Of a stretch of DNA of 64,000 nt, positions 4,104 through 59,610 are shown piece after piece. The notes under the pieces were generated by a model, which was given only the letters and a program-made list of their open reading frames with translations, did not search any database and was not told where the DNA came from. The stretch is from Sipunculus nudus (taxonomy: Eukaryota > Annelida > Sipuncula > Golfingiida > Sipunculidae), in NCBI GenBank assembly GCA_026874595.1, contig CM049308.1:21923867-21987866 (forward strand). Direction: 5' to 3'. The position numbers and the translations under genes were made by a program. Positions within the stretch are counted from its first letter, which is position 1; every line of letters begins with the position of its first letter.

Positions 4104-4860
4104 TTTTTTTTTTTTTTTTAACAAAGTTTTATTCAACAAAAATAATTACAAAGCTTTTCAGGTCTGTACAAAGCTATGATATGACGTACATAAATTAATC
4201 ATTAACCACCTCTACAATTTCCTTCAATACACATCTCCAAACAATATAAAATAATATAAAAAAATTCCACATTAACATGTCGAATTCTGTTTCATTATAA
4301 TAAACATTGTAATATCGACCACTTTTCCATAAAATTAGACACATTCCCCTTATTTTTTGCAATAATATATTCTATCTTCATATAATGTTTCAAATAATAC
4401 TTGAACGCTCCAATATTTAATTCTTCCTGCTTACATCTACATCTATAGATGTATCTTTTTCCCAATGTGAGTAGATAATTTTTCCAATCGTCACCATTTA
4501 AGTCTCCTAAGAATACTGTTTTCTTATCAATGTGAAAGTGATCAAATTTCAACTTATTTTGACTCCATTTTTCCATAGATATCCAAAATGTTTTTATTAT
4601 GTTACATTCCCAGAACAGGTGAGGTATATCCTCAGTGGCGAATTTGCAGAATGAACATTTATTATCTTCTTTTAACTTCCATTTTTCCAACCAATAATTA
4701 GTAACAAGAACATTCTGTAAAAATCTAAATTGAAAATTCTGAGTTTTCACATCTGTAAATACCTGTTTTGGTAGTAAGTGTACAGACCACCAGTCACAAT
4801 GGTCAATATTCAAATATTTATTAATCTGTGGTGGCTTTAAAGTGTTTGAGCATGTACAAC
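4104..4860 (-). mobile_element. 5'-truncated LINE tail (RT C-terminal zinc-finger region)
   Basis: Read on the minus strand, an open frame (4813 down to 4295; open upstream to about 4860) encodes the C-terminal part of a non-LTR retrotransposon polyprotein. Visible features are 'FQFRFLQNVLVTNYWLEKW', then a Cys/His motif CSFC-x8-H-x4-C ('HLFWEC') and a following tryptophan-rich stretch. This is the arrangement of the zinc-binding region after LINE reverse transcriptases. A T-run at about 4104-4120 on the + strand is the A-tail of the minus-strand element. No RT palm or endonuclease is present, so it is a typical 5'-truncated dead copy. The clade cannot be resolved from this piece. Confidence 0.75.
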
Positions 4861-5723
4861 TGTCATGCAGATAAGAGCACTAATCTGCAAGACCACCTGC
4901 TTAATGTGACAATTTTCTAAAGATAGAATCTAAACAAATTGACTACTACCTGTGGACGAACAAGCAACAATAGTTTGATAACAGCATTGTAAATGGTGGT
5001 AATTGCACTTTGCAATATTTTATGCTGTTAGGGTTCCCACCATGAGTTGCATAGAATGGCTGTATCATCACCCTGGGCCACCATGTTTGAATATTGCACA
5101 GACAATTTAATTAATCATATGCTTTGGATTCTTGTTTGAAATCATGAATATAGGCTCTATTGGTTAAGTTTCACACCACATAGGGTACAGCCCGGAGCCA
5201 CACAATGCGGCTGCCTTGGACAAAAGACAAATGTTACGAAGTACCCGTTTCATTTAAACAGGTTATCTGTATTATGTGTGATTGCATCCATTTTACATTT
5301 AATCAGTTTGTGATTAAATATTGTATATAGTTCATCCTGGTGGTTTCATAAGCCAACACTGTCATACCATAACAAACACACCATTTCCTTTCAGCGAAAA
5401 AAAACCCAAAAAAATAACAAAACCTGAATATTTGTTTCGGGCATTTTTTCATTGAAAACGCCTAAAAGATTTATCTTTTTGTTTTAATTTTTTTCTCAAG
5501 CCAAACTTAGCAGCACATAATCCGCTCACTTCAGGTTGATGTAATATCGGTGGCGCTTCCAGATAAAATCGCCTCAGCTTGATCTTAACTGGGCTGTCGG
5601 TGGCACAAAATGGCGGTGGCACCAGGCTCTAACATAAAGAACACTTCAAGATTACATTTTCATGTGAATACTTATCATTTTGATGAATCAGGAATAAACT
5701 TGTGAATTTCTGTTTTAAAACAG
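4861..5723. other. Region just upstream of the first recognised CRNKL1 exon; no exon recognised
   Basis: AT-rich. The family's N-terminal exon (about 20 residues ending before V-K-N-K) should lie upstream of the acceptor at 5722-5723, but I could not find it here or in 1-4860. An ATG at 5610 reads through a short frame that lacks the expected basic peptide and ends in a stop before the acceptor, so it is not a convincing start. Confidence 0.4.
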
Positions 5724-5813: not shown

Positions 5814-8800
5814 GTGAGTTAATCGTATTTCTTTCAATATTAATTGCATAATGGCCTCTTGTCAGTATTGTTCAAACAATGAAACAGTAAAACTTTATAG
5901 TGTCATAGTCAAAGTGACTTAATTAAATATAGCTTTGAATTGGCAGAGGTTCGACACTAGCAGGTTTATTTTTTGTTGTTCTTGTGTTGTCAACTTAATT
6001 ACATAGTGTTGTGACTGACGATCGATTATAAATGATGATCGGTCTGCTGATGCAGACGATCTGATGATCAATCTTGTATTGCCATCTAATCGATTACAGA
6101 GTTTTTCACAAAGGTTAAGCTTTATCATGCTGGAAGGTACACTTTTCATCAAATTTATGTGAAAAAAATTAGAACAGTATGTGTTTACTAATAGATTCAC
6201 ACCCTAAGTTTAAAATGTAGGCTATAGGCCAAAAAAATAAAAAGGTATGGTTCTCAGGCACTTTTTTTCTGAAATCAGTGCGGATGGGCAGTATTTTATT
6301 TTTGATCTTTTTTGGTATGTTTTGATAAAAATGTCATATGATCAGGGGAAAGTATAAAAATAACAAATTTGTTTGCTAAACAGGTGAAAGCACTACATAT
6401 ATTGTATTATTTATCTTCTTGAAAGATTAAAATAAAAATAAAAATGTTTGATGCTGGGGATTTAAATTGACGTGGGTGGTGCCTGAGAACCATACCTTTT
6501 ATTTTTTTAAGCCATAGAGTTATAACATATATTAGCTTTGATGTAGGCCTCTATCAATAGAGCCCTGGGTTTTCTGTTTAAACAGAAAAACGGAATTAAG
6601 GTTCAAAAACAGAATTATTTTAAATGCGTGGAATACGGCGATAAATCAGATTTAGAGCAGATTTCAACTGCCAATAAAGAAATTCTCAGCCAATATCTGG
6701 TAAAAAAAAAATCTTTAAAACTGCGCCAGCCATCTACATAACAAGCAGATATCAGCAGACCTTGCTTGTGTGCCAAGATTATTGAAAGTTGTAGTTAAAC
6801 ACTTTATGAATTTATGATATTAAATGATAGCTGAAGATTGACTTGATAAGATTGGAAATTTTTGGTTGAAACATATGTTGTGAATGTCTGCATTGTATTT
6901 TTACATGATACCCAATCTCTCCTTTGTTTTAGCCGCCGAAACAAAAAATCTCAGATGAAGATGAGCTCGCTGCTTACAGGCTTAGGAAAAGAAAGGTACT
7001 TTTGTTCAGTGTTAGACCCTAATTCATTCCAACTTCAATTGTGTTTTTATGAATATTGCATTTTTCTGCAAGAGCCATATTTCATAAAAAAGTATTCATA
7101 AGGTATGCATGATCTGTATTAGCTATTGAAGACTTTCATTGCTAAAGTGTAAAGCATAACAATTTAACAAAATTTTTTAATGTAAAGAATTTTATACATT
7201 TATTTTAATAATACCTTGATGAAAATAAGTATTGTAGTGGGACAGTGAGCATTTGATTACCTGCACTTGTTAGTGGTATCATTCTGGTCTCAAATTGATG
7301 TAACTTTAACGTGCTAGAAATCACCTTAATAAAATTATTATTGTTTGTAGATGTTTGAAGATAATATAAGGAAAAACCGGTCAGTAATGACAAACTGGAT
7401 CAAGTATGCTCAGTGGGAGGAGAGCCAGAAAGAGATACAGAGGTAAACAAACAAACAGGTGTCGAACCATAACCTCCTGGGCTGAGGTACTAATCAGTCC
7501 CAGAAAGTGTTATATTGTTGATACCATAGAAGCAGCAGCCAAGATGGTAATCTTAAGCCAGACAATCTAATATTGAATAATGTTACCTAACATTACATAA
7601 AAGTGTTACCCCATGGCCTTTTTTGGACATTTAACCTATAATATTTCTGGAGAAGTATAGCTTATTTTATTTCTTGGAGAAAGAGAAAAAAATGAGCAAG
7701 AGAAGAAAAAAAGAGAGAAAGAAAAGTAGAGAGAGAGGTAGAATCAGAGAGTTTCTCTCTTGTCTCTTAAAGTTTGTTTTTTCACATAACTAAACACTGA
7801 ATTATACTAATTATGGATATTTTTATGTACAGCCATTTACTTGTTTGTGACACTTTCGTCCTCTCGACCGCTACTGCTCAGTGGTAGATGGTATTTCTGC
7901 ACAGTGAGCAGATTGTGGAATTTGGGCAGGTTGTGTTGTCCGTCATAATTAGCACACCTGATACTTCTTTTCGGATGTGAATGGCCTCAAGGCGAGCAGT
8001 AGCAGTCCCACAGTCTGATGAAGTCCACTGACATGATTGGACAAAACTGTCAGAAACAAGTAAATAAGTAACTGTGTATAAGAATATTCATAGTATATAA
8101 TATACTACACTAGCCTTGTGTGATTTTAAGAGATAAACACTGAATAGTATTTGAAGATTATTGTCAGAGTTTGCTGACTGGTAGCAAGAATCAGATGATT
8201 TAGAATTTATAGATACCTGCATATTGCAGTACCCAAACTGTCTTATTTCACTTGAGTTCGGTAGTGCTGTGTCATATTTTATACAGTAAAACCTCAAAAT
8301 ATTGACCACAAATGAGACGCAGATAAAGTGGTTATATTTTTTTAAAGTGGTCTTCTAAGGGAGGTCGATAAAAAGCAAAAGAGAATCGGCACTGTTACAA
8401 GTAGTCGTTATTTTGGGATGGTCACCAAATTGAGCTGGTTGTAAGGGGAGGTTTTCCTGTAGTAATATCTGAAAAAGGTGCAGTGTATTGGTACAGCACA
8501 GATTCTACTTCTGTTATTTGCAGAGCCAGATCAGTGTGGGAGCGAGCACTTGACGTGGACCACAGAAACATCACTGTGTGGCTGAAATATGCAGAAATGG
8601 AAATGAAGTAAGTTTAAACTATAGATAAACCATTTGTTACCCATGAAAATAGACCTGCTAGGCCATAAGTAATAGTATTCCCACTTAAATATGTAAAAGG
8701 GATTGTTATCCAGTGCCTAGATGGATGTCATTGAGGCATTAGTTGCTCAAACTAACGGCCTTTGCACTAAATGGGATCAGTCCCTGGTATTTGCATATTA

Positions 8801-11800
8801 GTATGTCACAAGGTTTTTGTAGGACCTGGCAGATTATTCCCAGTGGAATATTAATATGTCACACTTTAGGTCAAGAATGGTGATAATTGAAGGACCCAAG
8901 ATTTATCTGGGATAGACCCCAATATTACTGACATCACAGGAAAACATCCTCAGTTCAGCTAGGTGGCAACAGGTGGTGCTAACTATCACATGACTGTACA
9001 TTATACCAGTCGATATGCCTACAGCATTGTGTTGGTATGATGAGTTCTATAGTTTTCTTTCATCTTGCAGCAAGCTGTGTAACTAATTCATTATCCAAAA
9101 AGTGTTATTTAAAGCATATTGACTGGGCAACCCTGTGTACAGAATAATTCAATTTTTTTTACAATATTGCAAGAGTGGCATTGAGTAAAAGATAACTTAA
9201 CAAGTAGTTCTTTTTAGTTTAATGGCTATGTAGGTTATGAGTATGTTACAATCTGCCTATGAAATAAATCATTTGTCATAATGTTTAACAGATTTCAAGC
9301 ATCTTCGTATGGATGTTCAGATATTGCACTAATATCTAATAAATCATAACTATTGACTTGTGTAAACATTTTGATTATTTCCACATTTGAGGTTTTCTTT
9401 CTGGAGTGATTTATGGACTAGAGCCCATGGTCAGGCATCACTTTATTATTTTAAAAGAATTGTGATATATTTCTCACCAGGAACCGGCAAATTAATCATG
9501 CAAGGAACATATGGGACAGAGCAGTGACCATCTTGCCTAGGGCCAACCAGTTCTGGTACAAATATACATACATGGAGGAGATGCTAAACAACATAGCAGG
9601 TATGGCCTGTACTAGACTATAGTCCATCTCATCCCCTCTTATCTACTTTTTTTGCTATGAAAATTTTTTATTAGTTATATTTCAAGGGATGCAATTATAG
9701 TGGGGAGTAGAGGATTATAGGACCTTATTTTCAACAAGGTAAATAAATACCTACCTTACACAGTATTTCAGAAAAAGAATTATATGAAAATATGAGAAAT
9801 CAGTCTACATTTTACAACATATCAGACCCATTTATGGCGGTCAAGGTCATTGGTCACATGCAAAAACAGCCTCAACTGACAGCTGCTGATTGGATGATCT
9901 CATGTAAACACTCTAAAAAATATTACCAGCTAAAACAAAGATGGCTAGGGACACATCATATCTGCCAGATCATGGTGTAAAACCTAAAATTTATTTAAAC
10001 ACAAACGGGGAATTTTCAGTAAAACATTTAATTGCCATATTAGGTTGTCACTTCGATATGTTGTTTTCTTGGAAAATATTGAAAAATATTAACTTTTAAG
10101 AACATCATCAACAAAACATAAGTGGACAGCAGGTGGTGAAACGGACTATAGCTGCACCTTTAGTTAGTTCTATGTGGACCTTTAGTCCATTCCATCGGCA
10201 GATGTAGTGAGTTCCATCTGCAGATGTCAGTTCCAAGTGTTCCAGAAGTTGCCTATTTGAAATAGAATGATTCGTTCTTTTCCAGTATTATCACATTGGA
10301 AAAAAAATCCACAGGTGAGTTTTATGTCCTTGGGCCCTTGTGTAATATTATTTTTATGCCCCCGCCACAAAGTGGCCAGGGCATATAGTTTTACCCATGT
10401 CCGTCATTCCAAAATCAAACAGTTGTACAGACTTTTTTTCGCAATGCCTGCAGATATTGGCCTGATTTTTGGTGTGTAAGCAGATAATGACCAGTTACAG
10501 AACAAGTTCGCGTTTCGTCAAGGTTGACCTTTTTTTGACCGTTTTATGGCTCCTAAACTTTAAAAATTTCATGAAAAATAGAAATTTTCATGACAAATAC
10601 ACATGTACGGACTTTTTTTCGCAATGCCTGCAGATATTGGCCTGATTTTAGGTGTGTGGGCAGATAATGACCAGTTACAGATTGAGTTCGCGTTTCATCC
10701 CAGTTGACCTACTTTTGATTTTTTTTTACGGCTCCTAAACATAGAAAATTTCAAGAAAAATTTAAATTTTCATGACAAATGTACATGTACAGCTGTTTTA
10801 GCCCTCAGCTCATAGGCTGATTGGCTATTGTCATCACCCAAGCTGTCCATCTGTCTGTCCGTCTGTCTGTCTGTCCGGAGTCTGTCCATCCTGCGTCTGT
10901 TAACTTTTACCTTGTGAGCAGGATATATATATCTCTAAAAGGATTCACCGCTGCAATTTTATTTCATCAGTGAATATGTATATCGATAAAATCTCGGTCA
11001 AGTTCGAAGATGGGTGACCTTGACCCATTTTTCTACATTTTAGAGCTGATTATACAAAAACACTCAAAAGCTTATATCTCAGGAACCATATGGTGGATTG
11101 TTATGAAACATGGTACATACCTCTCCAATTTAAATTTATAACTGATTATCAGCTTTTGCTAATATCCTAGTTTCGCAATGCAGTGCTTACAGATACTGGC
11201 CTAATGTTTGGTCTGTGGGCGCAGAATGACCACTTACAGATCAAGTTCGCGTTTCGTCCCAGTTGACCTATTTTTGACCATATGACAGATCCTGAACATA
11301 GAAAATTTCATGAAAGACAGAAATATTTATGAAAAATGCACATGTATGGACTTTTTTTCACAATGCCTGCAGATACTGGCCTGATTTTAGGTGTGTTACT
11401 TAATAATGACCCGTTACAGATCGTGTTTGCATTTTGCCCTTGTTGAACTACTTTTGACCATATGACTACTCCTGAACTTAAAAAATTTTACAAAATTTAA
11501 CAAATGTTTCTAATTTGCCCCAGGCGGGGGCATTTGTGTCGTTCTGACACATCTAGTTTTAGACAGTCACCATATCGGCAAATATATGATTAATTAATTA
11601 AAAAAACTGCTCTCCAGATATCTTGAGGACATGTAAATGGTCTTAGAGGAATACAGTTCCTGCTTTACCTCATGATGTGTGAATATATTATGTCTTGTAT
11701 TAATTACAGGTGGACGTCAGGTGTTTGAGCGATGGATGGAATGGGAACCAGAAGAACAAGCATGGCACTCATATATCAACTTTGAGTTGCGCTACAAAGA

Positions 11801-14800
11801 GCTTGATAGGGCCAGGGCAATATATGAACGATATATCCTTTTTGTCATCATGCTCAAAATACCAGCATCTCCTAATACAGTCACATATTCATGTCATATT
11901 AAGAACCAAATTTTTATCCAATCTTATCTGCTGTAATAGTTTGCTAGAACAATTATGAAAGACTCAAAAGATCATTCAGATGAAACTTATTTAAAAGGAG
12001 ATACCTTGCTTATTTTGCATTTATATCTTGCGGAGATATTTCCTTACACTTATGTATCATATACAAAATTTATACCTCTAATATAACTCTTCACGATTTT
12101 CACATTCCTGGTGTGGGTGGTGGAGGGGGGGGATGACAGGTGTTTAAAATGGGTTAATTGTCCTTTGTCTATTGCTCATTTAGTAATTCTATAGGTAAAT
12201 TTGCCAACTGCAGACAACAGCTGTCTAATGTATTAAGTGTCATTGGATCATGTATTTCCTTAACAGTTCCTACTTGTCATTGTTCATCCAGAAATTAAGA
12301 ACTGGATCAAATATGCCAAATTTGAGGAGAAACATCATTACATTAACAGCAGCAGAAGGATCTATGAGCGGGCAGTCGAGTACTTCGGAGATGACAACAT
12401 CAGTGAAACCCTGCTGGTTGCATTTGCCAAATTCGAAGAAAATCAGAAAGAGGTACGAGCAGGGTTTATTGTGGATACTAGGGTTGTCACAATATACCAG
12501 TCCACTTATACATCCCAGTGAAGTCATACACTGTATTGATAACACCAGATGTTCTTATATTAATACATTAATGATACATGGTAAAACCCTGTCCTGTTGA
12601 GCTCGCTTAAATAAAAAAAAAACACTTGTGTTGAAGTTTCATGCTCAAAGTAAAATGTTACATTATTACTATATCAAACCTGCTTTTGTCAAAACCTCAA
12701 ATACGCCAAAGCTTGATTGTAAATCCCTTCAACTTCAGCACAACAAGGTTTAATGGTCCTAAAGTCAACTAGCGCAGGCATCTGATAGGCTGAAGTCTTC
12801 TCATCATCAGGCCTGAAAATATTTGATTGATAAAGAGAAATAAAAGACAACAAAAACTAAACAAAAGGTTGAATGCTAAGGATCAAATATTTTTCTTCCT
12901 GATTTTTAGCTCAGCTGACTATAAGTCATCTGAGCTATAGTCGTGGTCCATTGTCCGTCCGTCCGTCCGTCCATCCGTCTGTCGTGCCATCCATCTGTCC
13001 GTAGATGTGGCACGTTTTGAAACCGCAAGACCTAGGAATCCTAAATTTTGGCATAATGTTAGATGTCCCCAAGATCTCCTACCAAGCTGAAAACTGGGTC
13101 TGTGCGACTTCGTTCCTTTGAGAAATTAAGGAAAACCTCAATTTTTTATTATAAACCTATTTTCACACTTCAGGACTGCCTAATATCAAAACTGCTCATC
13201 TGTTTTTCCTCATATTTACCATAAATATTCCCCTATATATTTTCTATGTACATGCCAGAAATTATTTCTGTATTATATAATTTAAAAAAGTTATGGGCCC
13301 AAACATAATGCATTTTGTAAAAAATCAGGAAAGATATTTGATCACTCAACACAAAACATGTTAAAGCTATGGACCTTTTTTTCCAGTAATATAACTTTAA
13401 TTAATCAAAATTAAATTGTATACCCAAAATTAGATCAAAATCTTTTAAATTTTTTGAAATATTAACAAAAATAAAAAATTGGTACCTTAAATTTTTCCCA
13501 ACTTTGACCATGGCACGTTTTTTTCCTGTAAGTACTGTGGATTTAATTTTCACAGCATGTTTTTGTTAGCATTTTGTATGTTAACACCAACAATTTGAAA
13601 CCAGTTGATGATAAACTGTAGATTTTATTCAAGTTTTCAAGCACTATGTAACATATTGTTTACATCAAGCTAGTGTTATGCAGTTTGCTAGAGCTCAGCT
13701 CCTTTACTTCAGCTCTCAGTTCCTAAAATTTGGCATACAATTAGATGTCTCCAAAATCCCCTTCCATGCCAAGAATTTGGTCACTAGGACTTAATACCTT
13801 CGAGATATTAATGAAAAACTTCATTTTTCCATTAAAAACCCATTGTTACACTTCAAGACTGCCTAATATCAAAACCACTGATCTGTCTTTAATCATATAT
13901 AGTATACATATTTTTCTATACATTCTCTATACACATGCCAGAAATGATGTCAGTATTGCGTAATTGTTTTAAGTTATGGGCCAAAACATAATGCACTTTG
14001 TAAAAAATCAAGAAATATATTTACTCCCTTAACAAGAGGATTGCTGAAGCTAGAGATTTTTTGTCAGGGATGTAACATTATTTAATCAAGATTCAATTGA
14101 ATACCCAAAATTAGTTCTGAATTTTTCAAATTTTATAAGTTATTAGTATAAATATAAAATTAGTACCTTAAATTTTGCCAAACTTTGACTTTGGCACATT
14201 TGTTTCCTGTGAGCACTGTTGATATAATTTTTATATCATGCACACATAAGGATTTCAGCTTTTTAGTTTAGAAAGCTGAAAGAAATTGGCCAAAAATTGT
14301 AGCTTTTATTAATGTTTTTATGAGACCATGTCAGACCTTAGCTCTCCCCATCCCCTCTTGAGTCACCTGTATGTTGACCTTGTTGACCTTTCATCAAATT
14401 ATGCACGCTTGACGCGAGGCATACACTGGGGCAGCCAGGCAGCTTATGGCCAGCCACAGTTGATCCAGGTGTCCAACCCAATTCAACTAGTAGTTGTCAC
14501 TAACAACATAACAATAAACAATAAATGAATAAATTTTTATTGGTTTTTAATATCAAATTAAAGAAATATAGAAGAGGAATTTGTTAGTTGATAATAACAG
14601 GAAATTAACTTGCAGTGACTGATGATATAAGAATCCTGTGTCGATTGATAGAATATCACGTATTCCAAATAACACCATGCAGTCACCTATGGTATTTTTC
14701 AGTTCAATTTTAATGATAAAAAAATAAATCATATTATTCATTACTAATCATTAGGGATCATATGAAGGAAATTAATGACAGACAAAGATGCAGTTGATAA

Positions 14801-17800
14801 TATTAATCTAGATTCCTGCTGTGTCTAGTGTGTACATTGATGTGAAATTAGTCCAAAATGATTTTTTTACAGTTATTTTTTAATATAAATAAAAGCCATA
14901 AAACCAGTTACTTATGATTATTATTCAAATGTGTGAATTTTGTATATTCTGGATTCTCAACATCATTGTTTGGTAAAAACTGAATAAATACCAGACATGG
15001 TGCGAATACTTTGTTATTGTATTTAAATACGAATATGATTATGTACTCCATTATAAAATTTCTTGCATAAAGAATGGGAATTCAGGTAAAAATGAAAGTA
15101 TATGAATACTCGTGCAAATACTTTCAAAATTTATTCATGAATGCATTCATGAATATATTCTTTAATATTATTTTAATAATCATTTCAGTTATATTTCATT
15201 TTAGAAAATCATATGATTCTCTTATTATTTTTAATTAAAATTATATTTGGGACAATATTTGTAATTTTTTTTAATAAATAGTTAAACTCTTATATTATAT
15301 GTTCTGCTTATAAGTTATATGGCCAAGTCAAAATCTGTGTGACAATAGTACTCCATTTGTTAATAAAATAAATGAAATCAATCCTCTTCCCTGTCTCCAA
15401 AGGAACTATCAAAATCATACATAAGCTAAACACCCACAACTCATAATACAGCTTATATTTATTACCACACAAAACCAGCATGTGCCTCATTTCTAAATCA
15501 TATTTTTTTATCATATATAACAGCTGAGCGCCGTGACCCATGGGTCCCTTGTTTTATGAGATGCCATCTGTGTAAAAAATGATATTGCTTTTCTCCATAT
15601 CAATCAGTGGAAACAGTCACAAGAAGGGGAGGATAAGTATAATGATTATATTCAAGATTATTATAATGTAGACTTTTTTTGATGTTCAGATTTTCAAAAG
15701 GTTGAGAATTATGACCGATTAAGCAAAATTCCAATAAATTCAATTTAATGAAAGTAAATGAAAAATGGTCAATATAACGGATTAATTGACAAAACACTAT
15801 TGTTTATACTCTTTTTATTTTCCTATAATTACAGCATGACAGAGCTCGAGTAATCTACAAATATGCCCTCGACCACCTGCCTAAGGACAGCTGTCAGGAA
15901 ATTTATAAGCAGTACACGATGCATGAGAAACGCTACGGTTCACGTGCTGCTATAGAAGATGTCATCGTCAGCAAGAGAAAGTTCCAGTATGAAGAGGTAA
16001 GAACTCAAAAACGCCATTCATCTATTTGCCCATGTCCCCAATAATATTCCTATGTTATAGTTTGAGAGTCATGTGTCAATATGCAGTTTGAGAGTCACAA
16101 TACTACACGCGCAAGTCCTTACTGAAGTTGCAATGTCCTTTGGAGCCATAGGATTTCTGTTGGGTTTAATCTTAAACTGGAGCTTTGGAGTCGAATAGTA
16201 ACACTATTTTTATTTTTCAATATGATAACCTATACATTCGATCATACAAAAAAATTATTGTTATGAGGATTTGCTTTTCCTGTATTACAGATTTGCCACT
16301 CCTGTTTTTCTTTGGTCCAATTTTTTTTTTTTTTGCAAATGAAGACCAGGTCCTAGTACTATGGCAATAATTCCTTAAAGGGACCCATTCACCTATCTGA
16401 GTTTTATAAACTAAAGGTAATCCCTTCAAGCTATTTTAAAAATGGGCTCAAAAAAGTGGATATCACATCATATAGGCTGTTTGTTTTGTTTATATAAATG
16501 TGTTTATAATATGTGGGGGCCCACCAAAGTAATAAAAACAAATTAAACAAGGGCATCTGGGGGCAAGTCAGATAAGCCAGAGCTTTGCAAATGGCCGTTA
16601 GCAGGGCACAAATCGTAACTGCTGGTCCTAGAAACTTCTAAGTTAACATCCAAGGAGGTCAATAAAAAATCTCCTTGGAAACCTGAAATTAGTGACCTAT
16701 ATCCTCCGAACTATAGGGCTTGAAAGTACCACCCAGAATTATCAAAAATATAATACAAAATCTCCAATATCTTGATAATTAATGCATGGATTGTCATGAA
16801 TCTTGCCTTGAATATTGACCATGACTAGTTTTGTCAGTTCCCCAAAAGTGGTGGTGCCACCTGTATTTTTTTGCCACTTTAACGAATATTTTTCTATTTT
16901 TTTTACTATAAAATGACAACAATCATGTCAGTTTCTCAGCTGTAATTACATCTAGTGTCCCAAAACCTGGTGTGTTTATTGATCACAAAGTGGATGCCAT
17001 ATAGTAATCACCCTGTCTGTCTGTCTGTTGGTCTGTCTGTCTGTCCATCCGTCCATCCACACAAATTTGTTTCCAGATGATAACTCCAGGTTGTATTGAC
17101 ACATGGATTTCAAACTTGACTTACTTATGGCCCACCTCTAAAGCAAGAACATATATGATTTTGGGGTCACAAGGTCAAAGGTCAAGGTCACAGGACTCAT
17201 TTCTTTAAAAAGAATGCATATGCATTTGAAGGCAAACTTTTCATTGCAAATAGGGAAAGATTCTGTTCAGTTTTTTGGGGTCATGAGGTCAAAGGTCAAG
17301 GTCACAGTATCCACTTATTTAGAAAGATTGTGGATGCATTTTAAGCCAATCTTTTCATCCCAAACCTTTGATCTTGCACATATAGCTGAGCTGCCAATAG
17401 GGGAAGAACCTGATTGATGTGGGGATCACAAGGTCAAAGGTCATGGTCACAGGGGCCCTTCTGACACATATTTGTTTCTGGATGATAACTCCAGTTTCAA
17501 TTGACATATTGGTTTCAATTTTGACTTATATATGACCCACCAATAATGTTAGAACCCTTTTGATTTTGGGGTCATAAGGTCAAAGGTCAAGATCACAGGA
17601 CCCACTTCTTTAAAAAAGATTGTTGATGTATTTTTAGCTCAGCTGACTGAAAGTCATCTGAGCTATAGCGATCACTCTTTGTCCGTCGTCCGTCTGTCCG
17701 TCTGTCCGTCTGTCTGTCTGTCCATCTGTCCGTCCGTTAACCAGGCACAAATCGTAACCGCTGGACCTAGAACCTTGTAACTTGGGATTCTGAGAGGTCC

Positions 17801-20800
17801 ATAAAAAATCTCCTTGGAAACCAGAAATTAGGTCTCTGTTACCCATATCCTTCGAGCTATGTGGCCCCAAAGTACCCCCCAGAAAAGTCAAAAATTTCAT
17901 ACAAAAACTTCAATATCTCATTAACTACTTGACTGATGGTAATGATTTTTGGCATACATATTGATCATGAGATGTTACATCACTTCCTGCAGACTGGTGG
18001 CGCCACCTGTATTTTTCGATTTTTTACGAATTTTTTTCTCTATTTTTGAGACCTTTAAAAATGTGAACATCTGTTAACAAGGCACAAATCATAAAGACTG
18101 GACTTAGAATCTTAATTCTTGACACACTGAGAGGTCCATGAAAAATCTCCTTGGAAACCAGAAATTAGGTCTCTGTTACCCATATCCTTCGAGCTATGGG
18201 GCCCAAAAGTACCCCCCAGAATAGTAAAAAATTTCATACAAAAACTTCAATATTTCAATAACTACATCACTGATGGTCTTCATTTTTGGCATACATATTG
18301 ATCATGAGATGTTCGATCAGTTCCTGCAGACTGGTGGCGCCACCTGTTCTGTTTGATTTTTTACGATTTTTTCCTCTATTTTTGAGACCTTTGAGGATGC
18401 TGTCATCTGTTAGCGTGGCACAAATGGTAACGACTGGACATAGAATCTTCATTTTCGACACACTGAGAGACCTATGAAAAGTCTCCATGGAAACCAGAAA
18501 TTAGGTCTCTGTTACCCATATCCTTCGAGCTATGGGGCCCAAAATTACCCCCCAGAATAGTCAAAAATTTCATACAAAAACTTCAATATCTCATTAACTA
18601 CATCACTGATGGTCATGATTTTCGACTTACATATTGATCATGAGATGTTTCATCAGTTTGTGCAGACTGGTGGCGCCACCTATATTTTTCAATGTTCACG
18701 AATTGTTTTCTCCATTTTTGAGACCTTTAAGGATGTAGTTATCTGTCAACAGGGTACAAATCGTAACGACTGGACCTAGAATCTTCGTTCTTGACACACA
18801 GGGAGACCCATGATAAGTCTCCATGGAAACCTGAAATTTGGTCTCTGTTACCCATATCCTTTGAGCTATGGCACTCCAAAGTACAGCTCAGAATAATGGA
18901 AAATTTGATTCAAAAGCTAAAGTATCTGAACAACTAATGCAGAGATAACCATAATTGTTTGCATGGATATTGATCATGGAGTGTTTCATAAGTTTCTGCA
19001 GACTGGTGGCATCACCTGTATTTGTTCGGTTTTTTTTACGAAATTTTTCTGTATTTTTGAGACCTTTAAAGATATGAACATCTGTTAACAGGGCACAAAT
19101 CATAAAAACTGGACCAAGAATCTTCATTCTTGACACACAGGGAGACCCATGAAAAGTCTCCATGGAAACTTGAAATTAGGTCTCTGTTACCCATATTCTT
19201 TAAGCTGTATCTGTCCAAAATACCCCCCCCCCCCCCCCCCCCCAGAATAATGGAAAATTTGATACAAAAACTGCAGTATTTCAATAACTACAACACTGAT
19301 GGTCATGATTTTCGGCATACATATTGATCATGAGCTGTTCCATCAGTTTCTGCAGACTGGGTGTGCCACCTCTATTTTTTTTCAAATTTTTACGAATTTT
19401 TTTCTTTTTTTTTGAGACCTTTAAAGATGTGGTTATCTGTCAACAGGGTACAAATCGCAACAACTGGACCTAGAATCTTCATTCTTGTCATGCAAGGAGG
19501 CCCATGAAAGGTGCCTGTGGAAACTTGAAATTAGGTCTCTGTTACCCATATCCTTCAAGCTATAGGACTCCGAAGTATCCCTCAGAATAATGGACAATTT
19601 GATACAAAAACTGAAGTATCTGAACAACTAATGCAGAGATCACCATGATTTTTTGCATGTATATTGACCATTAAGTGTTTTTATTAGTTTCTGCAGACTG
19701 GTGGAGCCACCTGTATTTTTGTATCCGCCAAAACGAAGTTTTGTGGATACTATGTTTTTGACCGAGTTCCTCCACCGTGGCGGCATTCGTTTCCAGAGAG
19801 CTCCTCGGAGACTAATGGACTGATTTTTCCCAAACTTACACCTATTATCGGGTCACATGTGAACTGGTGCCTAACCAATATGCGTTGACCTCTGACCTTT
19901 CCTCTCTATCCAGTGTCCATTTGTGGGTCTGTTTCCACTCATAAACCCTCATATCTTGGGAACCGTTTGACCGATCAGGAAATAAAATTGATACAAATGT
20001 AGCCCTTGGATTGCTTTATAACATACACAAAAAATGGTGGCGCCAACTGTAACCATGTTTGCACAGTGTCCATCTGTTCATCTGCCTTGGGTTAAAATCA
20101 CTCATATCTCTGCAGTGAATTGACTAATTCACCTGAAATTCGTCATGCGTATACATCCAGGATAGCTTTCTTGATTTTATGACAGGTGGCGCCACCTACG
20201 TTCACGTTCACGCTGATGACATCCAAGCTTATATCTTGGGAACCTTTTGACCGATCAGGAAATAAAATTTATACAAATGTAGCCCTTTGATAGCTCTGTA
20301 ACATACACAAAAAATGGTGGCGCCACCTGTAACAATGTTTGCACAGCGTCTGTCTGTTAGTCTGCCGTGGCCTAAAATCACTCATTTCTCTGTAGTGGTT
20401 CGACATAACTGCCTAAAATTTTGCAGGTTTATACATCGTGGACAGCTTTCTTGATTTTATGACAGGTGGCGCCACCTACATTCTAGTTAACGCTGCACAC
20501 ATCCAAGCTCATATCTCAGGAACCATTTGACCGATTGGGCCAAAATTGTGCATGTGTTTAGATCTCACATAGGTCTTTATCATACACAAAACTGGAGGGG
20601 TTACCTGCAAAGATTTTTGCACAGTGTTTGTCTGTTTGTCTGCCATGGGCAAAAATCGCTCATATACATGTAGTGGTTTGACTTTTCTGCCTAAAATTTT
20701 GCAGGTGTATACAACTTGGACAGCTTTCTGGATTTGTGGTAGGTGGCACAACCTACATACACATTTAGGCTGCAGACATCCATGCTAATATGCAACATAC

Positions 20801-23800
20801 CTCACTCTATTTCCCCTTGCCACTCAATCCATGCCTCACTATCCGATTTTGGCAGATACATGTAGTCACTTGTCGGTTACCTGTATTCTAGTTTTAAAAG
20901 TTTACACATTTTTCTCTATTTTTGAGATATATAAATACAGACTAAATCTTGGCCTGTTGGTTAATCTGTTTGATGCTTCAGTTGAATGGGTATATACTAC
21001 CATTCTGATGATAAAATTTCCTTTTGCGAATCTCTTCCCAGTCAGCTGAGCGTCATGACCCATGGGTCACTTGTTATCCAAACTTTCTGCCCAAAACCTT
21101 CTATCTTCCAGATGTTGCTCACCTGCCAATAGTGGAAGTGACTTATGGATTTTGGGGTCACAAGGTCAAGATCATGTGGGCCATCTATCCACTTATTAGT
21201 TTCCAGATGATAACACCAGTTTGTTTTTAAATATTGGTTTCAAACTTGACTTATATATGGCCCACCACTTAAGTAAGAACTGTTGATTCTGGGGTCATGA
21301 GATCAAAGGTCAAGGTCACAGGACCCACCACTTTAGAAAGACTGTGGATGCATTTTAAGCCAAACTTTTCATCTTAATCCTTCCATCATCAATATGTGGT
21401 GCACATGCCAATAGGGGAAGTTTCCTTTTGATTTTTGAGTCACAAGGTTAAGGGCACAGGCCATATCCATTCACAAATTAGTTAATGGATGATAACTTCA
21501 TTTTGGGTGGACAGGTTGGCTTCAAACTGATCACAGGACCAATATTTTGGAAAACCTCATAAACATATATCCTTATAGACAAATGCAGCTGAGTGTTGAG
21601 ACCCATGGGTCCCTAGTTAAAAACCCATCTCTGACGGGATGTATTATGGTATACCCACAATCCCTCCATCCATTAATTTTGAGTGTCGCCACGTAAACTT
21701 AATCACCATAACTACTTACCAATAGATTATTTGCCCAAGTTCCATTATGGGCAAAATCAACACATATTTAATACTTAAGTTCAGAGGTCACTAGGCTGCT
21801 TTGTGGTGTTGCCGTATAACTTGCGGGGAATTAAATGGATTTTGATAAAACTCAACAGAAACATTAATCAGTGTTATATCTTGCCTAAGTTCGATTTCCA
21901 GCAAAATCCACACATATTTAATGAGGTCAGAGTCCTACTGACTTTGGTGGCACAACAGTGACTAATCTTATGGATTTTGATGACCCTAAATATTTAAATT
22001 TACCAATAGAGTTTCTCACCTGCATGACATTCCTAGCAAAATTTGCACATATGAATTGAGGTCAGAGGTCACAAGATACACAACAGGTGTATTATGCACT
22101 ATATGTGGTGCTCTTGTTGAGATTTGGATTGGATCCTTGTATGTAATCACATATCACTTTATGATATTTTTCACAAAGCATTTATTAAATTTCTGGAAAG
22201 TGTAATGCTAATTCTTGTATAATTATGCCAATCCTGATCACCTAGAACTGAAATGAATATGTGTCATGAATGGTAAAAATTACATTCCTATGGAGTTAAA
22301 TGTTGTTCAAAAAATTTAGTGACATATGTACTTATATATGCTAACTTTTGTAAGTGTTGTTATTAACCAAATTAATGAACTAGCCTTCTTTTTTTTGTTC
22401 AGCTGACTGTAAGTCATCTGAGCCATAGCGATCACTCTTTGTCTGTTGTCCGTCCAGCCATCTGTCCATTAACAGGGCACAAATCTTAACTGCTGGACCT
22501 GGAATCTTCTAACTTTACATCCGGAGAGGTCCATGAAAAGTCTCCTTAGAAACGTGGAATTAGTTCTCTGTTACCCATATTCTTCAAGCTATGGGGCTCT
22601 GAAGTACCCCCCCCCCCCCCAGAATAATGAAAAATTTGATACAAAAGCTCAAGTATCTGAACAACTAATCCATTGATCACAATGATTCTTTGAATGTATA
22701 TTTATCATGGAGTGTTTCATCAGTTTTTGCAAACTGGTGGTGCCACCTGTATTCTTTCAATTTTTTACAATTTTTTTTCTCTATTTTTGCGACTGTTAAA
22801 GATAGGGTCATCTGTTAACAGGGCACATTGTTACCGCTGGATCTAGCATCTTATAACTTAACATCCAGGGAGGTCTGTGAAAAATATCTGTGGAAACTTG
22901 AAACTAGGTCTCTGTTACCCATATTCTTTGGGCTATTGGGCTTATAAACACCCCCCATCAAAATTAAAAATTTGATACCAAAGCAGGGCACAAATCATAA
23001 CCATTGGACCTGGAATTTTCTAACTTTAAATCCAGTGAGGTCCATGCAAAGTCTCCTTGGAAACAGGAAATTAGGTCTCTGTTACCCATATTTTCTGAGC
23101 TATGGGGCTTATAAGCACCCCTCAGAATAACTGAAAATTTGATACCAAAGTAGAGCACAAATCATAACCATTTGGCCCAGAAAGCTCTTACATGACATCC
23201 TGAAAGTTCCTCAAATGTTCTCCCCAGAAACCTGAAATTCGGTCACTGTGACCTATATTCTCAGAGTTTTGGGGTATGTTTAATCATCCCAGAAATAATG
23301 CAATATACACACAGATTCCTTAGGAAAGGCTGGTTGGATTGTCATCAATTTTGTTGTGCTTATGGGTCTTGATGAGCTTAAGCTAACATGCATGAACAAT
23401 GATGCCACCTACAATATCTTAATTATTTGCCAGTGCAAGGATATTTTGTTAACATGTCAGTCAGTTGAGCCTCATGACCCATGGGTCACTTGTTTGGTGG
23501 AGGTGACCGCCCCCATTTTGTAATGCTCTCTTATCTAATTCTTATTCTAAGTATGTACATCTGCAGAGCTCCATTTCGGTTTGGGACTTTGTTACAGGGC
23601 CGTAGCACTCGCTTCCTGTCATATAATTTGTGTATCCTGATGTCACCCAAGCCTGTTGTCCACAACACCTGCAGGTCATGGAAATGTAATCATCCCAATT
23701 GCTGGGTTATACCCTGAGGACCCCCCCCCCCCCACAAAAGACGCACTAATTTGTGAGTGATAAAGGCTATTGGGCACAGCCTTCCAATTAGCTTGCTGAG

Positions 23801-26800
23801 CACTTGCCCCGATTGGGGACAGTCCATGAAAATCTCAGAGCCTCCACTGAGATTTGAACTCACGACCTCCCGGCTTTGATTCCTGTACCTTACCCCTGAG
23901 CCACAGAATCCAGATCCTGTCTTTAACCATCATGTGTGTTGCCAGATAACAGTGGTTAATTTCTGTTTTTCAGGAAGTGAAAGCCAACCCACAGAACTAC
24001 GATGCCTGGTTTGATTATCTGCGTCTGCTGGAGAGTGATGGTGACCCAGAACAAGTACGAGAAGTTTATGAAAGAGCAATTGCAAATGTACCACCTTCAA
24101 AGGTAAGTAATTGATATGTTTTAATACTTTCTCATTTTATGGAAGCTTATAATATAGTAGATTTTTGCTGTACCTCATTTCTGTCCAGCTGTTTCTCGTG
24201 CTGCCTAGTAATTTTAAAGGACAGGTTATTGCAGTTGGTAATTTCAGAACCTGAGCATAATCAGTTTTATTGGTAATTTCACAATCTAGGGATAATCAAT
24301 CATTAATTTTGTTTTAAGTCATGATAAAATTATGAAAAAATCATTCAGATATGATATTCTGGAAATGTAGGAACCCTGTAGAATTTACTTAAAAAGTTTG
24401 AAGTTTTTATCTTCTTGTAATGTAAGACACCTCTTTCACTTATCATGTACAGTAGAACCTGTCTGAAAGACTATCTGTCGAATAAGACCACCTGTGAATC
24501 AAGACCACTCTTGGCCAGTCCCACAGGTGGTCTTACTGCACAGGTTTACTGTTTATACACAACTTTATGCTTGTAGGAAAAGAGACACTGGCGACGGTAC
24601 ATCTATTTATGGATTAACTACGCTTTATACGAGGAGCTGGAGATGGAGGACTATGAGAGAACGCGTCAGGTGTACCAAGTCTGTCTAGAACTGATTCCAC
24701 ACAAAAAATTTACATTTGCTAAGATGTGGTTACTCTATGCTCAGTTTGAGATTCGACAGAAAAATTTGCAAAAAGCTCGTAAAATTTTGGTAAGTTATCA
24801 TCTTCATTAATTATTCACATGAATTCTTGTGAAAATTAATATTTAAAAAATTATGACTGGTTTACTTTATCTCAGCTGATATCTCTGATTGCTTCAATTT
24901 TTAAATAGTTGGCCTTAGGTTTTCTCAGATTTAAATAAATTGGCCTTTTCCTGTTTAAACTTCTCATCTGTGTCATCATTTTCAGGGTACTGCTATTGGA
25001 AAATGTCCCAAGGATAAACTCTTCAGGGGTTATATTGACCTAGAGTTACAGCTGAGGGAATTCGACCGATGTCGGATATTGTATGAAAAGTTTCTTGAAT
25101 TTACACCAGAAAACTGTACAACCTGGATGAAGGTAGGCTTTGTTCTTCTCTCCTCTATTTCATTAAATCCACAAAGAAGATGAAGAAACAAGTAGGACAC
25201 ACTCAGATCAGGCTTGGCAAATAACTCTTTTTAAAAAGAGTTACACTTCTTTTAAGATTTGCTAATAATTATGCCAATTACTCTTTTTCACTCTTTTTTT
25301 TTACCAGCACTTTTTTCCTCTGTTTTTCAGTAAAAATTTTGAGATTTTTAATACATCTTTTGTGTCATAACAGTTAAATTAGTACAAGATGGGACACCTT
25401 TTTTGGTAATTTTTTGTTGGCAAATGTCAAGCATGTAGACAAGTCTATGGAGCACATCTTTCTTCAGTTTGTCATAAAAAATGAGAATTATTGCTGATTG
25501 TACTCTTTTTTTTTTTTCTCTTTAACTTCAAAGAAAACTATTCTTTTTTTTAGAGCACTTACTCTTCATTACATTCATTCACATTTAGCGGGCCTGAAGA
25601 TAATTTCAAGCAGGATACTCATCAGATACACTCATACCAGTACTTGATTATCTGTCACATTTGACAGTCTTTTCCTACATTCATGTGAAAATCTGAACAC
25701 GTAGAACTAGAAAAGCGCTTAGAAAGCACAGACCTCAATCAAGGCAGCTCATCACCCAAATATGGTATTTTCAGAAGTGCAGCATTTTTCCTTTAAAAAA
25801 TTCCTGGGTCCACCCCCCCAAATTTAATTAATTCTTCCTTGTATCATTGCTGAGCTATCCTGAAAATTTGATCAAAATCCTTTAATGACTTTTTGAGTAA
25901 TGTCGCTGACAGACACACAAACAAACAGACAAATGTATTTTCTTACTAACAGCCATAAGTTTCACAAGTATTCTGTCATGGTGACATGAACAAGAAAGAC
26001 TTCCAAATATAGAATTAAATATGATATAAATTTGTCTTCCTTAATGTAGGAAAATACTTTATTAACCCTGGAACCTCAAAGGAACTGTTACCATTTATAT
26101 TACATCTACAGTATATCATGCATGTTTTCAAAATGAAAATAATTTTGATCTTGCAGCTTTATATTATGTATCAGGGAATAATATAATTATAGAAAAATCA
26201 TTAGTGATCATAGCAGATCAGTGTTGAAAAATGATTGGCGGTTTATGCTTCCGAGTGGCAGTTTGTCATTGACTTTTATTTTAGCATGTAAAATGTTATG
26301 ACTGGCTATTTAGATCTGGAGTATAATAAAGTTCCTTGAATCATAACAAGTGAGTAGAACCAATATTTTGCAAAAACTTCATAAAAAAAACTATAAATAA
26401 ATAATTGTCAAAATCATATCAGACTAGTCATCATAGCAATACAGTACAGTGGTAGGCAGCAAGGTGCTAAAAATAATATATCAGTTCAGGATCCCTTCTG
26501 TTCAATTAGTCCTATAGTCTGGACTTTCTTAATTATGATGGCTTCCTCAAGTGTTCCTTTTCTTTGATGGACCTGCCTCCTTATTTGAATATTTATTAGC
26601 AGTCATAGCGAATCAAAACGAGCAAACTATTAGCACCTGGCCTGAATTGACACACTGCAAACTCGGACTCACAAAGTATGACTCTGTTGTTTAGGGATTG
26701 TCAAAATCTGACACCTACAGTGCACCAAGGCTTCTAAATACACCAGCAGAGTAGGTATAAATGTAGTGAAGAGGACAGTGTAGTCCGTTCAAGTGTGGTG

Positions 26801-29800
26801 GATAAGAATTGTTTAAAGGCAAATTACATAAACATCGGTGTCTAGTGGTAAGGGTTTTAAGGAATAAGTAATATTTTGTAAGCATGCACATGTGAAATGT
26901 AAACAAAAGGTGTTTCCTTGAAATTAAACCTGTTTTGATTTTAAAGTTTGACAGTTGAGACAAGTAGTCCCGGGTGTCACCACAGTGCTCAAACACAAGA
27001 GATTTGTTTTGAGTAGAAACAACCTCTGGTGGAAGGGTGCTGAATCGATTATCAAACTATTCCCTGCCTGTCATTTTTAATGATAAATTTAAACTTCAGT
27101 ATTCTGAGCTTGAAACCATCCTGGGAGATCTGGACAGAGCACGATCGATATTTGAACTTGCCATCAATCAGCCCCGACTGGACATGCCGGAGGTCCTGTG
27201 GAAAGCTTACATTGATTTTGAGATTGAGCAGGGAGAGTACCAAAACACACGCAACTTATACAGACGACTTCTACAGCGCACACAACATGTAAAGGTAAGA
27301 GTTATCTTATTTTATTTGTAGTTTCATGGCATTATTTTACCTTGTACCTTAGAAAGGCAAATAAATCTTACATTAAGAATTTCTGTTACTGTAACCATCA
27401 GTCATGAATGTGACCTTTAACCCTAAACTTGTGATAAATGAAGGTTTGCATCCAAAACATCTTTCATCACTTTCCATTACTTTCACCCAGACAAATAAGA
27501 ACATTAGTGTTGTATTAATAAACTGTTAATTATTTATTACGCAAGAAACACTAAGAGAGGGATAACATATACTGCCAGCTGATTTGGGGTTTCTGCTGTA
27601 TGTTTATACTTACAAAATATTCCTGTACCTTTTTTGAAAGCTTAAGTTAAACAATATCCCTCATTTTCTGAAATCATCAGATATTCATAGTTATTTAACA
27701 AAACAGTATTATAAAGTGTTAGAGTATTTTGGTATAATTTTGTTGGTCTTTGTGATCCTCCTAGGAAACAAAATTTGTGGCATGGGTAAAATTTCTCATA
27801 GTGAACTGTACCACATCAGTAAAGTTTATTATTAAAAATTATTCAGTGAGAACATAGAAAATCCTTAGTGATGAATCAGAATAAATAATTTATTTTAACT
27901 TATTTAAAGCCGATTAATTAATGCAGCCACAGCACTTGACAGGATGGCACTTGACAGTGTGGCACCCTCACCCTGTGAGAAATTATGTGCAGCACAGAAA
28001 CACTGCATATGTTAGTTGAATTATAGTATTTTAAAAAGGATGGCACCCATCTAAAAATAGAGTTATTTATAAAAAAAATTAACTTTGACCAGGTATGGCT
28101 GAGCTATGCCCAGTTTGAACTGACAACTCAAGAGGATGATTGCTTTGATAATGCCAGAGAAGTCTACAGGCAGGCTAACAGAGCTCTGAAGAAAACAGAC
28201 CAAAAGGAGGAACGACTTATGTTACTCGAGGCCTGGAAAGAATTTGAGGTAATTTATATTATAACTGACAGTAACACTGAATCTTTGCCATGCAATTCCT
28301 CTGTGGCCAAGCCTTGCAAATGCTGTTTCATTCATAGTCTAAATGTGAGGTTTGTCTTTCACATTTCTTTATTACAAACATAAATCTTTTACCAAATATA
28401 GTCATCATTTATTAAATGTTTGCTGGGCTCCCCTCTTAAAGCTCCTGATAGTGCCATGAGTCATCCTGAGTAGAGTAATTCCCCCCTATAAAATCCTGAG
28501 GAATTTGACATTATTAGGGAAATTTGATGAAGGGTCAGTGTAACTTTACTCATGGAAAACCTACCAAACAAATCAGACGAAAGTCATACAGATCATTTTC
28601 AACACCAGATCAGTAATGTGCTAGTTATCTTTGTTGTAAAAGGATTTACCTGTTGGTATTGTGTACCTGAGCTGTAAAATATCAGGAATTGATCCTCATA
28701 TAACTATCAGTTTACAAATGGACAGTCTCACCTGTTTATGTATGTGGTTTGAGGCTCTGATAAATTGCTGGTAAGGGAAAAGATGATTGCAATGAGTGTT
28801 GGTAGACAGTCAGGGTTCGTACACTTATCACGAGAAAAATTTCAAGCACTTTTCAAGGACCTGAAAAGTATTTTCAAGGACATCAAAATTTATGGACGGT
28901 CAGTGCACCTTCACCCATGCATGTTGCCGACATCGAAAGGCTTGTAACACAAAATGCAAAATAATATTTATAATGAGATGGACCATATAGTGTGATAAAA
29001 AGGCTAGTAAATGTAGGTAAGTAATAGTTATAAGGAAATGACTCAGAAAAGTAACAAATTTAACCGAAATCTACACTAACAGCAATTGAAGCGCTTGTGG
29101 TATAACCAGTCGCGGTTTAATACACAGCGGCCCATTGTTTTAACTTTACATTCAAAATGATCACTCATCTTTGGCATGACCTTGACAGATTTAACTAATC
29201 TGATAACTAGGGTCTAAAACCTTTAATATCTTGAATAGGGATCTCTGATTTGCCGACTAGCTCAAACTTAAGCAAATTATATGCCTTGGCAGAAGAGGTG
29301 CCGAAAAACTCTGACAGTTCGGCGATCGTGGGGGATATTCACTCAAGTTTTCAACGGCAAAAAAAAAATCAATAAAAGCCTCTAATATGTTACCCTTATA
29401 CGATATTTAGGTCTAGTATTATCAAATTATTCAAAACAATACTAGTCAAACTTTGTATCAGCACGTTAAATATGACGTCCTTGGCGTGCACAAGGTTTCT
29501 GCCGTTTAACGCCAAGTCACAGGCCACACGTGTCAACAAATGGCCATGCAACACCTGTGAAGGTCATAATCTAACGATCACAGACGCAACCAGATTTCTA
29601 TTCAAACCTGTCCAACATTTGATTAAAACTAAAAATGTGAAATCTTATTTTAAAAAAAACTCTTATTGGCGAGTTTTATGCAATCGTTATGCAGGGCATG
29701 GAGTAGTCCATCTCTTGACCCTTGTGTCCTATGTTAGACCTGATGGACGGACACGTAGGCATGGAGGGGGCCGATGCTGGAAGTTGTATATGTCGTTGAT

Positions 29801-31476
29801 CATTCTTTAAACTGCCAGTGTACTACGCTTACAAACGGCTATCACATCGCAACAAAAATGTGATTTCCCCCATGGATCCCAGCATTTTACAAACTGACGC
29901 CAAAGTATGTGAATATATGTCAGTACCTGCCAAACACCTTAACTATTTCGGACAAACAGTATTTATCCTTAATTGGATTGACCACGCGTGTAAACTGTAT
30001 TTTGCTGATCAGTGGTCTTATGGAGCTAACAAATGACGATCACAGCGCGTACACTTGGAATGTGCAGGTACCAAGATAAAAAAAACACAACCCTTGGATA
30101 AACTGAAAAACCTTTAACCAAAACAAAGTCGAATCGGGTTCGTTGGGGAAATATGACCCCTCTGATATAATTATTATCACCGAGTTACCAATATAAAACG
30201 TAAAGTTAACTTGATTTAAACAACATATTCTACTGAGCGAATTAGTTTTATATTATTATTATCCCTCAGATTCGAATTTTTACCATCTTGTATTTTTCAC
30301 ACATTTTATTCCCCTGGTTTGTTCCCTGATAATTATTTCCTTTGGACAGATCTTCTCAATAGTTATATTAATAATCTCTGTAGTATTACATTTAAATTTA
30401 AATTATAAATCTTGCGAAAATACTTACATGAACTCGCCTAGCGTGTATTGAGTTTTCAATTAAAGAGCTTTTAATACGTACCTCGGGGGAAATCTCCACG
30501 ATCTTTCCAGTAAAGCAGCTCACTTTCTATTTGATAATAAACATGGTTATTACCCTCGTATGTCAACTTGTTACATCGTCACTTTCACTGCCCAGTCTCA
30601 TTCATCCACGATTGGGTTAATTCTATTTCATACATTTGATTGACGTAGAGATGCCAGAAAGTCGATATTAAAATACCAGGTATGCATACACACAAAATAC
30701 ACCAAACTCTTTCCCAAAATTTTATTTTTCAAGCACTTTTCCAAACCACTCTCTCTTTTTAAGCACTTTTCAAGCCCTTGAAATTGAAATGACTAAATTC
30801 TAGCATTTTTCAAGGTTTTCAAGGTGCGTACGAACCCTGACAGTGTTTTTCTTGCATATGTTTTATAGTAGGAACATGGGGGAGGGGGAAGAGTTTGTCG
30901 TTTATATAAAGAATCCATTAATAAGACCAGAAGTTGTACTTTCACAATCATAGAAGTTGTAATTTAAGATAATTAGTTATGATGTCTGAGGAGAGGACAA
31001 ATCTGAATGAAGACTGTTGTTGTTCTCTGTAGAAGGAACATGGGGACGATAACAAACAGGCAGAGGTACAGAAACTGATGCCCAACAGAGTCAAGAAGAG
31101 GAGGAAAGTACAGACAGAGGATGGGGTAAGTTACACACTCTGAAGGATATCCAGGAGCGTCAATATAGGGGGATGGGGGGTATATATATCCCCCCCCCAC
31201 TTTTTGGCATGGGGGATGGTCGATGTAATCATTCCCTTAACTATTCAGAGAATTTAATATTTATATATTGCAAATGAAATCTATTAATAAATAGAATTAT
31301 AGACTTTGGTTCCATTTATGGGTTTACTATGAAATGTTATATGTAAACCTGGTTTAGAATTAACTTATTATACTGGAAACATAAAAACTTATTTTCCAAA
31401 CCTTTATACATAATTGTCATTTATTTGAAATGGGATTAAGTATAATTATTTAATATGTGTCCTACAGATGCTAAAA

Positions 31477-31537
<61 letters not shown>

Positions 31538-43500: not shown

Positions 43501-44405
43501 TGATACAGAGACATGAACCCATCTCATGATACTGAGACCTGAACCCATCTCATGATACAGAGACTTGAACCCATCTCATGATACAGAGAACTGAACGCAT
43601 CTCATGACACTTAGACCTGAACCCATCTCATGATACTGAGACCTGAACCCATCTCATGATACAGAGACCTGAACCCATCTCATGATACTGAGACCTGAAC
43701 CCATCTCATGATATGGAGACCTGAACCCATCTCATGATACTGAGACCTGAACCCATCTCATTATACAGAGACTTGAACCCATCTCATGATACTGAGACCT
43801 GAACCCATCTCATGATATAAAGACTTGAACCTATCCCATGATATGGAGACCTGAACCTATCTCATGATACAGAGACTTGAACCCATCTCATGATATGGAG
43901 ACCTGAACCCATCTCATGATACAGAGAACTGAACCCATCTCATGATACTGAGACCTGAACCCATCTCATGATACTGAGACTTGAACCGATCTCATGATAC
44001 TGAGACCGGAACCCATCTCATGATACTGAGACTTGAACCTATCCCATGATACAGAGACCTGAACCCATCTCATGATACTGAGACCTGAACCCATCTCATG
44101 ATACTGAGACCTGAACCCATCCCAAGATACTGAGACCTAAACCCATCTCCTTATACTGAGAACTGAACCCATCTTATGACATTGAGACCTTAACCAATCT
44201 CAAAATACTGAGAACTGACCCCATCTCATGATACAGAGACTTGAACTGATCTCATGATACTGAGACCTGTACCCATCTCATGATACAAAGACTTGAACCC
44301 ATCCCATGATACGGAGACCTGAACCCATCTCATGATACAGAGACTTGAACACATCTCATGATATGGAGACATGAACCCATCTCATGACACTAAGACCTGA
44401 ACCCA

Positions 44406-44409
<4 letters not shown>
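40590..44409 (+). repeat. 26-bp minisatellite, main block (~145 units)
   Basis: The unit starts GAACCCATCTCATGATAC and ends TGAGACCT (26 bp). Left-edge units are degenerate, with faint traces from ~40110; central units are nearly identical. Common variants carry CAGAGACTT, CAAAGACTT with CCTATCCC, or CGGAGACCT. The CAAAGACTT variant recurs at exact multiples of 26 bp, including 43117, 43273 and 43429 (156-bp spacing, six units), so there is higher-order structure. The array is not coding: 26 is not a multiple of 3 and stops recur. Confidence 0.97.

Positions 44410-44471
<62 letters not shown>
44410..44471. repeat. (CT)n(AT)n microsatellite at the LINE/minisatellite junction
   Basis: CT dinucleotides to about 44430, then AT to about 44471. 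On the minus strand the AT part directly follows the LINE's AATAAAG end, so it is probably the element's simple-sequence 3' tail, extended by slippage. Confidence 0.85.

Positions 44472-44474
<3 letters not shown>

Positions 44475-56706: not shown

Positions 56707-56790
<84 letters not shown>
56707..56790. repeat. (TA)n microsatellite, 42 units
   Basis: Uninterrupted TA dinucleotides, followed ~25 bp later by a C run (about 56816-56830). Confidence 0.95.

Positions 56791-59547: not shown

Positions 59548-59550
<3 letters not shown>

Positions 59551-59610
<60 letters not shown>
59551..59610. repeat. (AT)n microsatellite with one GT interruption
   Basis: AT repeats from 59551 to 59610, interrupted by a single G at about 59593. 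Confidence 0.95.

Follow-up and report, generated by a model that had tools for sequence, protein, structure and literature searches.

A U12-type AT-AC intron in the gene for the splicing factor CRNKL1 of Sipunculus nudus

A single intron in a 64,000-nucleotide stretch of the Sipunculus nudus genome (hereafter the window, whose own coordinates are used throughout) raises the question as to whether a component of the spliceosome relies on the minor spliceosome for its own mRNA. The first-pass annotation of this DNA had placed an AT-AC intron of the minor (U12) class within the CRNKL1 gene and had pointed to possible feedback between the two splicing machineries. We find that it is almost certainly an ordinary, functional U12-type AT-AC intron, in an animal that has all four of the minor snRNA genes; the regulatory question calls for a more guarded answer.

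The plus strand of the window contains most of the gene for CRNKL1, the HAT-repeat protein also known as Crooked-neck or Clf1/Syf3. A tblastn comparison of human CRNKL1 with the window identifies 13 successive exons from 6939 to 31125, the first 12 of which can be joined in a single reading frame that no stop interrupts, and an additional exon is likely near 5724.

6933..31125, plus strand: reconstructed CRNKL1 coding region, 13 exons and 12 introns (tblastn and joins)
11710..11832, plus strand: CRNKL1 coding exon 5′ of the AT-AC intron (tblastn with human CRNKL1, and joins)
12274..12452, plus strand: CRNKL1 coding exon 3′ of the AT-AC intron (tblastn and joins)

In phmmer searches the protein encoded by the first exons scores 545.5-547.2 bits against human CRNKL1, with 77% identity across 273 aligned residues, as compared with 88.3 bits for human SYF1 and 46.5-48.4 bits for PRPF6; the gene product is thus a HAT-repeat protein nearer to CRNKL1/Crooked-neck than to either SYF1 or PRPF6. 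A 101-residue query spanning the join of interest matches only the window's own two exons, with no second copy found in the genome, so that, within the limits of a search of this length, there is no intronless CRNKL1 that bypasses the intron. A search for CRNKL1 relatives gave 51 pattern matches among viral contigs and 32 among prokaryote genomes, none of which was confirmed.

To place the intron boundaries we scored all 12 of the CRNKL1 gaps against the human protein with GT-AG, GC-AG, AT-AC, AT-AG, GT-AC and AT-AA ends. GT-AG gives the best fit in 11 of the 12, and AT-AC does so only at 11833-12273, where the intron begins with ATATCCTTTTTG and ends with TTCCTTAACAGTTCCTAC.

11833..12273, plus strand: U12-type AT-AC intron, 441 nt, phase 1, the fifth of 12 CRNKL1 introns (join score and motifs)
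11833..11840, plus strand: U12-type 5′ splice site ATATCCTT (consensus match and snRNA pairing)
12256..12264, plus strand: U12-type branch site TTCCTTAAC, with adenosines at 12262 and 12263 (9/9 consensus and U12 pairing)
12272..12273, plus strand: 3′ splice site AC (join and motifs)

Splicing at these positions unites Y-E-R with F-V-I-V through a Phe codon split T/TT, and the coordinates (11833-12273), the AT...AC termini, the branch site TTCCTTAAC at 12256-12264 and the phase (1) all agree with the first-pass annotation. A broader scan, in which donors from 11780-11900 were combined with acceptors from 12200-12320 irrespective of their dinucleotides and compared with human CRNKL1, yields 2,318 open in-frame joins, among which the AT-AC join has the top score, 458. 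The rest of the top twelve are slides of a few bases with ends of no known pair and score from 456 to 451; the AT-AC join leads these by only 2-7 score units, and it is therefore the protein that sets the length of the intron and the motifs that set its exact bases.

The first-pass claim that any nearby GT-AG choice breaks the protein is incorrect. Four GT-AG joins in the scan are open, the best of which, 11844/12266, is in frame, has an AACAG acceptor, and scores 440 as compared to 458. Use of this pair in place of AT-AC would make the intron a U2-type one (11844-12266) and would give CRNKL1 a net gain of six residues (YILFFLL for F), but its donor, ttt/GTCATC, makes a weak U2 site, and extra residues at the join are absent from all four of the other CRNKL1 proteins in our alignment. 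The nearest length difference is of one residue, in one of the four chains and a few positions further on; the more divergent, unaligned PDB chains (yeast CLF1 among them) include some with net length differences, at places that were not located. The GT-AG reading also leaves the perfect U12 motifs unexplained, and we regard it as highly improbable, its use being implausible rather than impossible.

The U12 5′ splice site motif is (A/G)TATCCTT, which ATATCCTT at 11833 fits; from +3 to +8 the intron matches the consensus at 6 of 6 positions, against 1-4 of 6 in the gene's other 11 introns, and at the branch site it matches 9/9, the other 11 reaching at most 6/9. The 5′ splice site and branch site are the elements by which the U12 class is defined (PMC3584512). 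The branch adenosines at 12262 and 12263 lie 11 and 10 nt, respectively, from the last base of the intron, at or just under the short edge of the 11-13 nt optimum given for the distance from branch to 3′ splice site in U12 introns (PMC3584512). At the 3′ end, 12 of the 17 positions from -20 to -4 are pyrimidines, a number inside the spread of the gene's other 11 introns (7-13), and the branch motif itself contributes to the count; as a test for the distinct polypyrimidine tract that U12 introns lack, it favours neither class.

How often might such an arrangement occur by chance? Of 300 strands of 64 kb simulated by a first-order Markov model, 10 carry ATATCCTT...TTCCTTAAC...AC with the motifs and the AC within 5 kb, the mean being 0.067 per 64 kb on both strands; the chance that the motifs should fall at the exact join is about 3e-8 by base composition. 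On its own ATATCCTT is over-represented in the window, with 16 copies when both strands are counted, where simulation gives a mean of 4.5, and nine of the 16 fall in the tandem arrays 17736-19720 and 57387-59088; this excess does not touch the argument from the joint motifs.

The two arrays have units of 336 and 345 bp, respectively, in which the U12-5′ss-like ATATCCTT recurs: five times on the plus strand in the array at 17736-19720, which lies inside the CRNKL1 intron 15997-23973, and four times on the minus strand in that at 57387-59088. The recurrence is probably a coincidence of the repeats. Elsewhere in the window a 26-bp satellite occupies 40635-44409 (∼145 copies) and 47973-48899 (∼35 copies), flanking minus-strand ORFs at 45613-47793. 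Four of these ORFs were scanned against Pfam, with one matching Exo_endo_phos_2 and one RVT_1 over the cut-off, one matching RVT_1 below it, and one matching nothing; the arrangement looks like a fragmented LINE with the same satellite on either side. Long AT/TA dinucleotide runs are present at 31479-31534, 44430-44472, 56707-56790 and 59550-59610.

The class of an intron cannot be read from AT-AC termini by themselves (PMC2831892), and an AT-AC intron could be U2-dependent, as in some sodium-channel genes. The sodium-channel introns of this type have G at +5 (PMC2831892), whereas the CRNKL1 intron has C at that position together with a perfect U12 branch motif, and a U2-dependent AT-AC intron is extremely improbable here.

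An intron of the U12 class would require the corresponding machinery, and the first-pass annotation had pointed to the minor snRNA genes as a means of checking its reading. We have therefore examined the 1.43 Gb genome (153 contigs) against Rfam cut-offs, scoring the best candidates such that the copy counts are lower bounds, and all four genes are present over the cut-offs: U12 with at least two matches (118.6 and 117.2 bits), U11 with at least one (108.7 bits), U4atac with at least one (88.4 bits), and U6atac with at least two, on two contigs (100.5 and 97.8 bits). The same searches for U11, U12, U4atac and U6atac are positive in none of 14 control genomes. An Rfam scan of the 64-kb window gives no matches at gathering scores, and the snRNA genes found sit on other contigs. 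The two U12 copies are on one contig (G000:C9:61119570-61119720 and G000:C9:24762301-24762451); they differ at 5 of 151 positions and have different upstream flanks.

Duplex folding with the U11 5′ end, U12 GTAAGGAA and the first AAGGA segment of U6atac predicts eight pairs for each snRNA segment, U11 and U6atac pairing with the CRNKL1 5′ site and U12 with the branch site; the predicted U11 and U6atac duplexes each include a G-U pair. The CENATAC family (PF14968) is represented by four exon matches over the cut-off, all on one contig, and in human cells CENATAC is reported to promote the splicing of minor introns of the AT-AN type (PMC8280824).

As a control we looked at PHB2, for which a U12 intron of the AT-AC subtype is recorded in both fly and human (PMC2831892). 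PHB2 was found in the same genome, and of the six introns reconstructed for it five are GT-AG and one AT-AC; the AT-AC intron (4607-5586 of locus L017) has the form ATATCCTT...CCTTAAC...AC and is in phase 0. The correspondence drawn with fly and human is one of gene and intron design. The CRNKL1 intron is similar to U12-type AT-AC introns such as that of PHB2 in fly and human in ATATCCTT, in its CCTTAAC core and in having the AC about 10 nt further on, and differs in its host gene and its phase (phase 1 in CRNKL1 as compared to phase 0 for PHB2 in this genome). For a second control, SNRPE, the donor after the first matched exon is GTATGATCC, not the U12 consensus, and no later exons were recognised within the 9.3 kb fetched, so that SNRPE lends no support and is uninformative as a control. 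The motifs, the join, the snRNA genes and the PHB2 control all back the first-pass reading of the intron as AT-AC minor-class.

If the CRNKL1 intron is spliced as its signals suggest, U11 would bind at the 5′ site and U12 at the branch site, after which U6atac would take the place of U11, and cuts at AT and AC would join Y-E-R to F-V-I-V. Since no second copy was found and no good GT-AG pair fits, we naturally infer from the sequence that CRNKL1 mRNA would depend on the minor spliceosome. A side effect probably follows when the intron is retained:

11934..11936, plus strand: first in-frame stop upon retention of the CRNKL1 intron, 101 nt into the intron

If minor splicing were slow or failed, the resulting mRNA would have an early stop, and the early stop would lower CRNKL1 output.

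Could this constitute a regulated switch, in which low minor-spliceosome activity leads to retention, an early stop and less CRNKL1, and thereby tunes splicing at large? A retained intron would halt translation 101 nt in, as such a switch needs, but most introns introduce a stop when retained. Relatively high basal retention has been described for AT-AN minor introns (PMC8280824), and a minor-intron circuit is known in SRSF10 (PMC7244321); on the other hand, a survey suggests that the evolution of minor introns may reflect largely neutral processes (PMC10639083). The likeness to SRSF10 would be that the output of a splicing protein is controlled by minor splicing, but in SRSF10 a minor and a major donor compete and an enhancer is present (PMC7244321), whereas in CRNKL1 no strong competing donor was found beside the U12 donor. 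By consensus count over the 30 GT sites in 11700-12299, only that at 12195, deep in the intron, fits the U2 donor at 7/8, and the others reach at most 5/8; with no good U2 donor next to the U12 donor, the SRSF10 design is not seen here. We consider the regulated switch unlikely. A related proposal makes CRNKL1 a control point: splicing of this intron, limited by CENATAC or U6atac, would set how much CRNKL1 is made and, in this lineage, would thereby tie major splicing to the activity of the minor spliceosome. This is quite unlikely.

Feedback between the two machineries, as raised at first pass, is accordingly to be taken as only a possibility. The idea itself is not new, with precedents in print in the splicing-factor genes that have U12 introns (PMC2831892) and in SRSF10 (PMC7244321), and a review of crosstalk describes further minor-intron feedbacks and raises the idea of such a loop for CENATAC itself (PMC8329584).

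The CRNKL1 gene also has company among genes with functions in splicing. CCDC16/ZNF830 has been linked to splicing. Like CRNKL1, the fly SF3A1, ZRSR2/Urp and CCDC16/ZNF830 are splicing-related genes with a minor intron (PMC2831892); that of SF3A1 is GC-AG and that of ZRSR2 a GT-AG twintron, whereas CCDC16 has an AT-AC intron as in CRNKL1 (PMC2831892). The crooked-neck gene is absent from the table of 19 fly U12 introns in that paper (PMC2831892, Table 2). A 2023 survey puts the biases of minor introns down largely to gene age, and notes that molluscs, among other protostomes, are relatively rich in minor introns (PMC10639083). Searches of the open full-text literature for CRNKL1 together with minor-intron terms turned up no naming of a U12 intron in this gene among the results listed, and the intron may already be present in U12 catalogues. 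U12 introns in splicing-factor genes are already known, and the CRNKL1 case is a sound and fairly ordinary addition to them.

What is gained is a minor intron of the AT-AC type, well supported, in the gene for a core splicing factor and in a genome whose minor snRNA genes are now located. If other animals share the CRNKL1 intron it would be one more old minor intron; if they do not, something would be learned from its age and pattern of loss. For the feedback to matter, retention would have to prove to set CRNKL1 levels.
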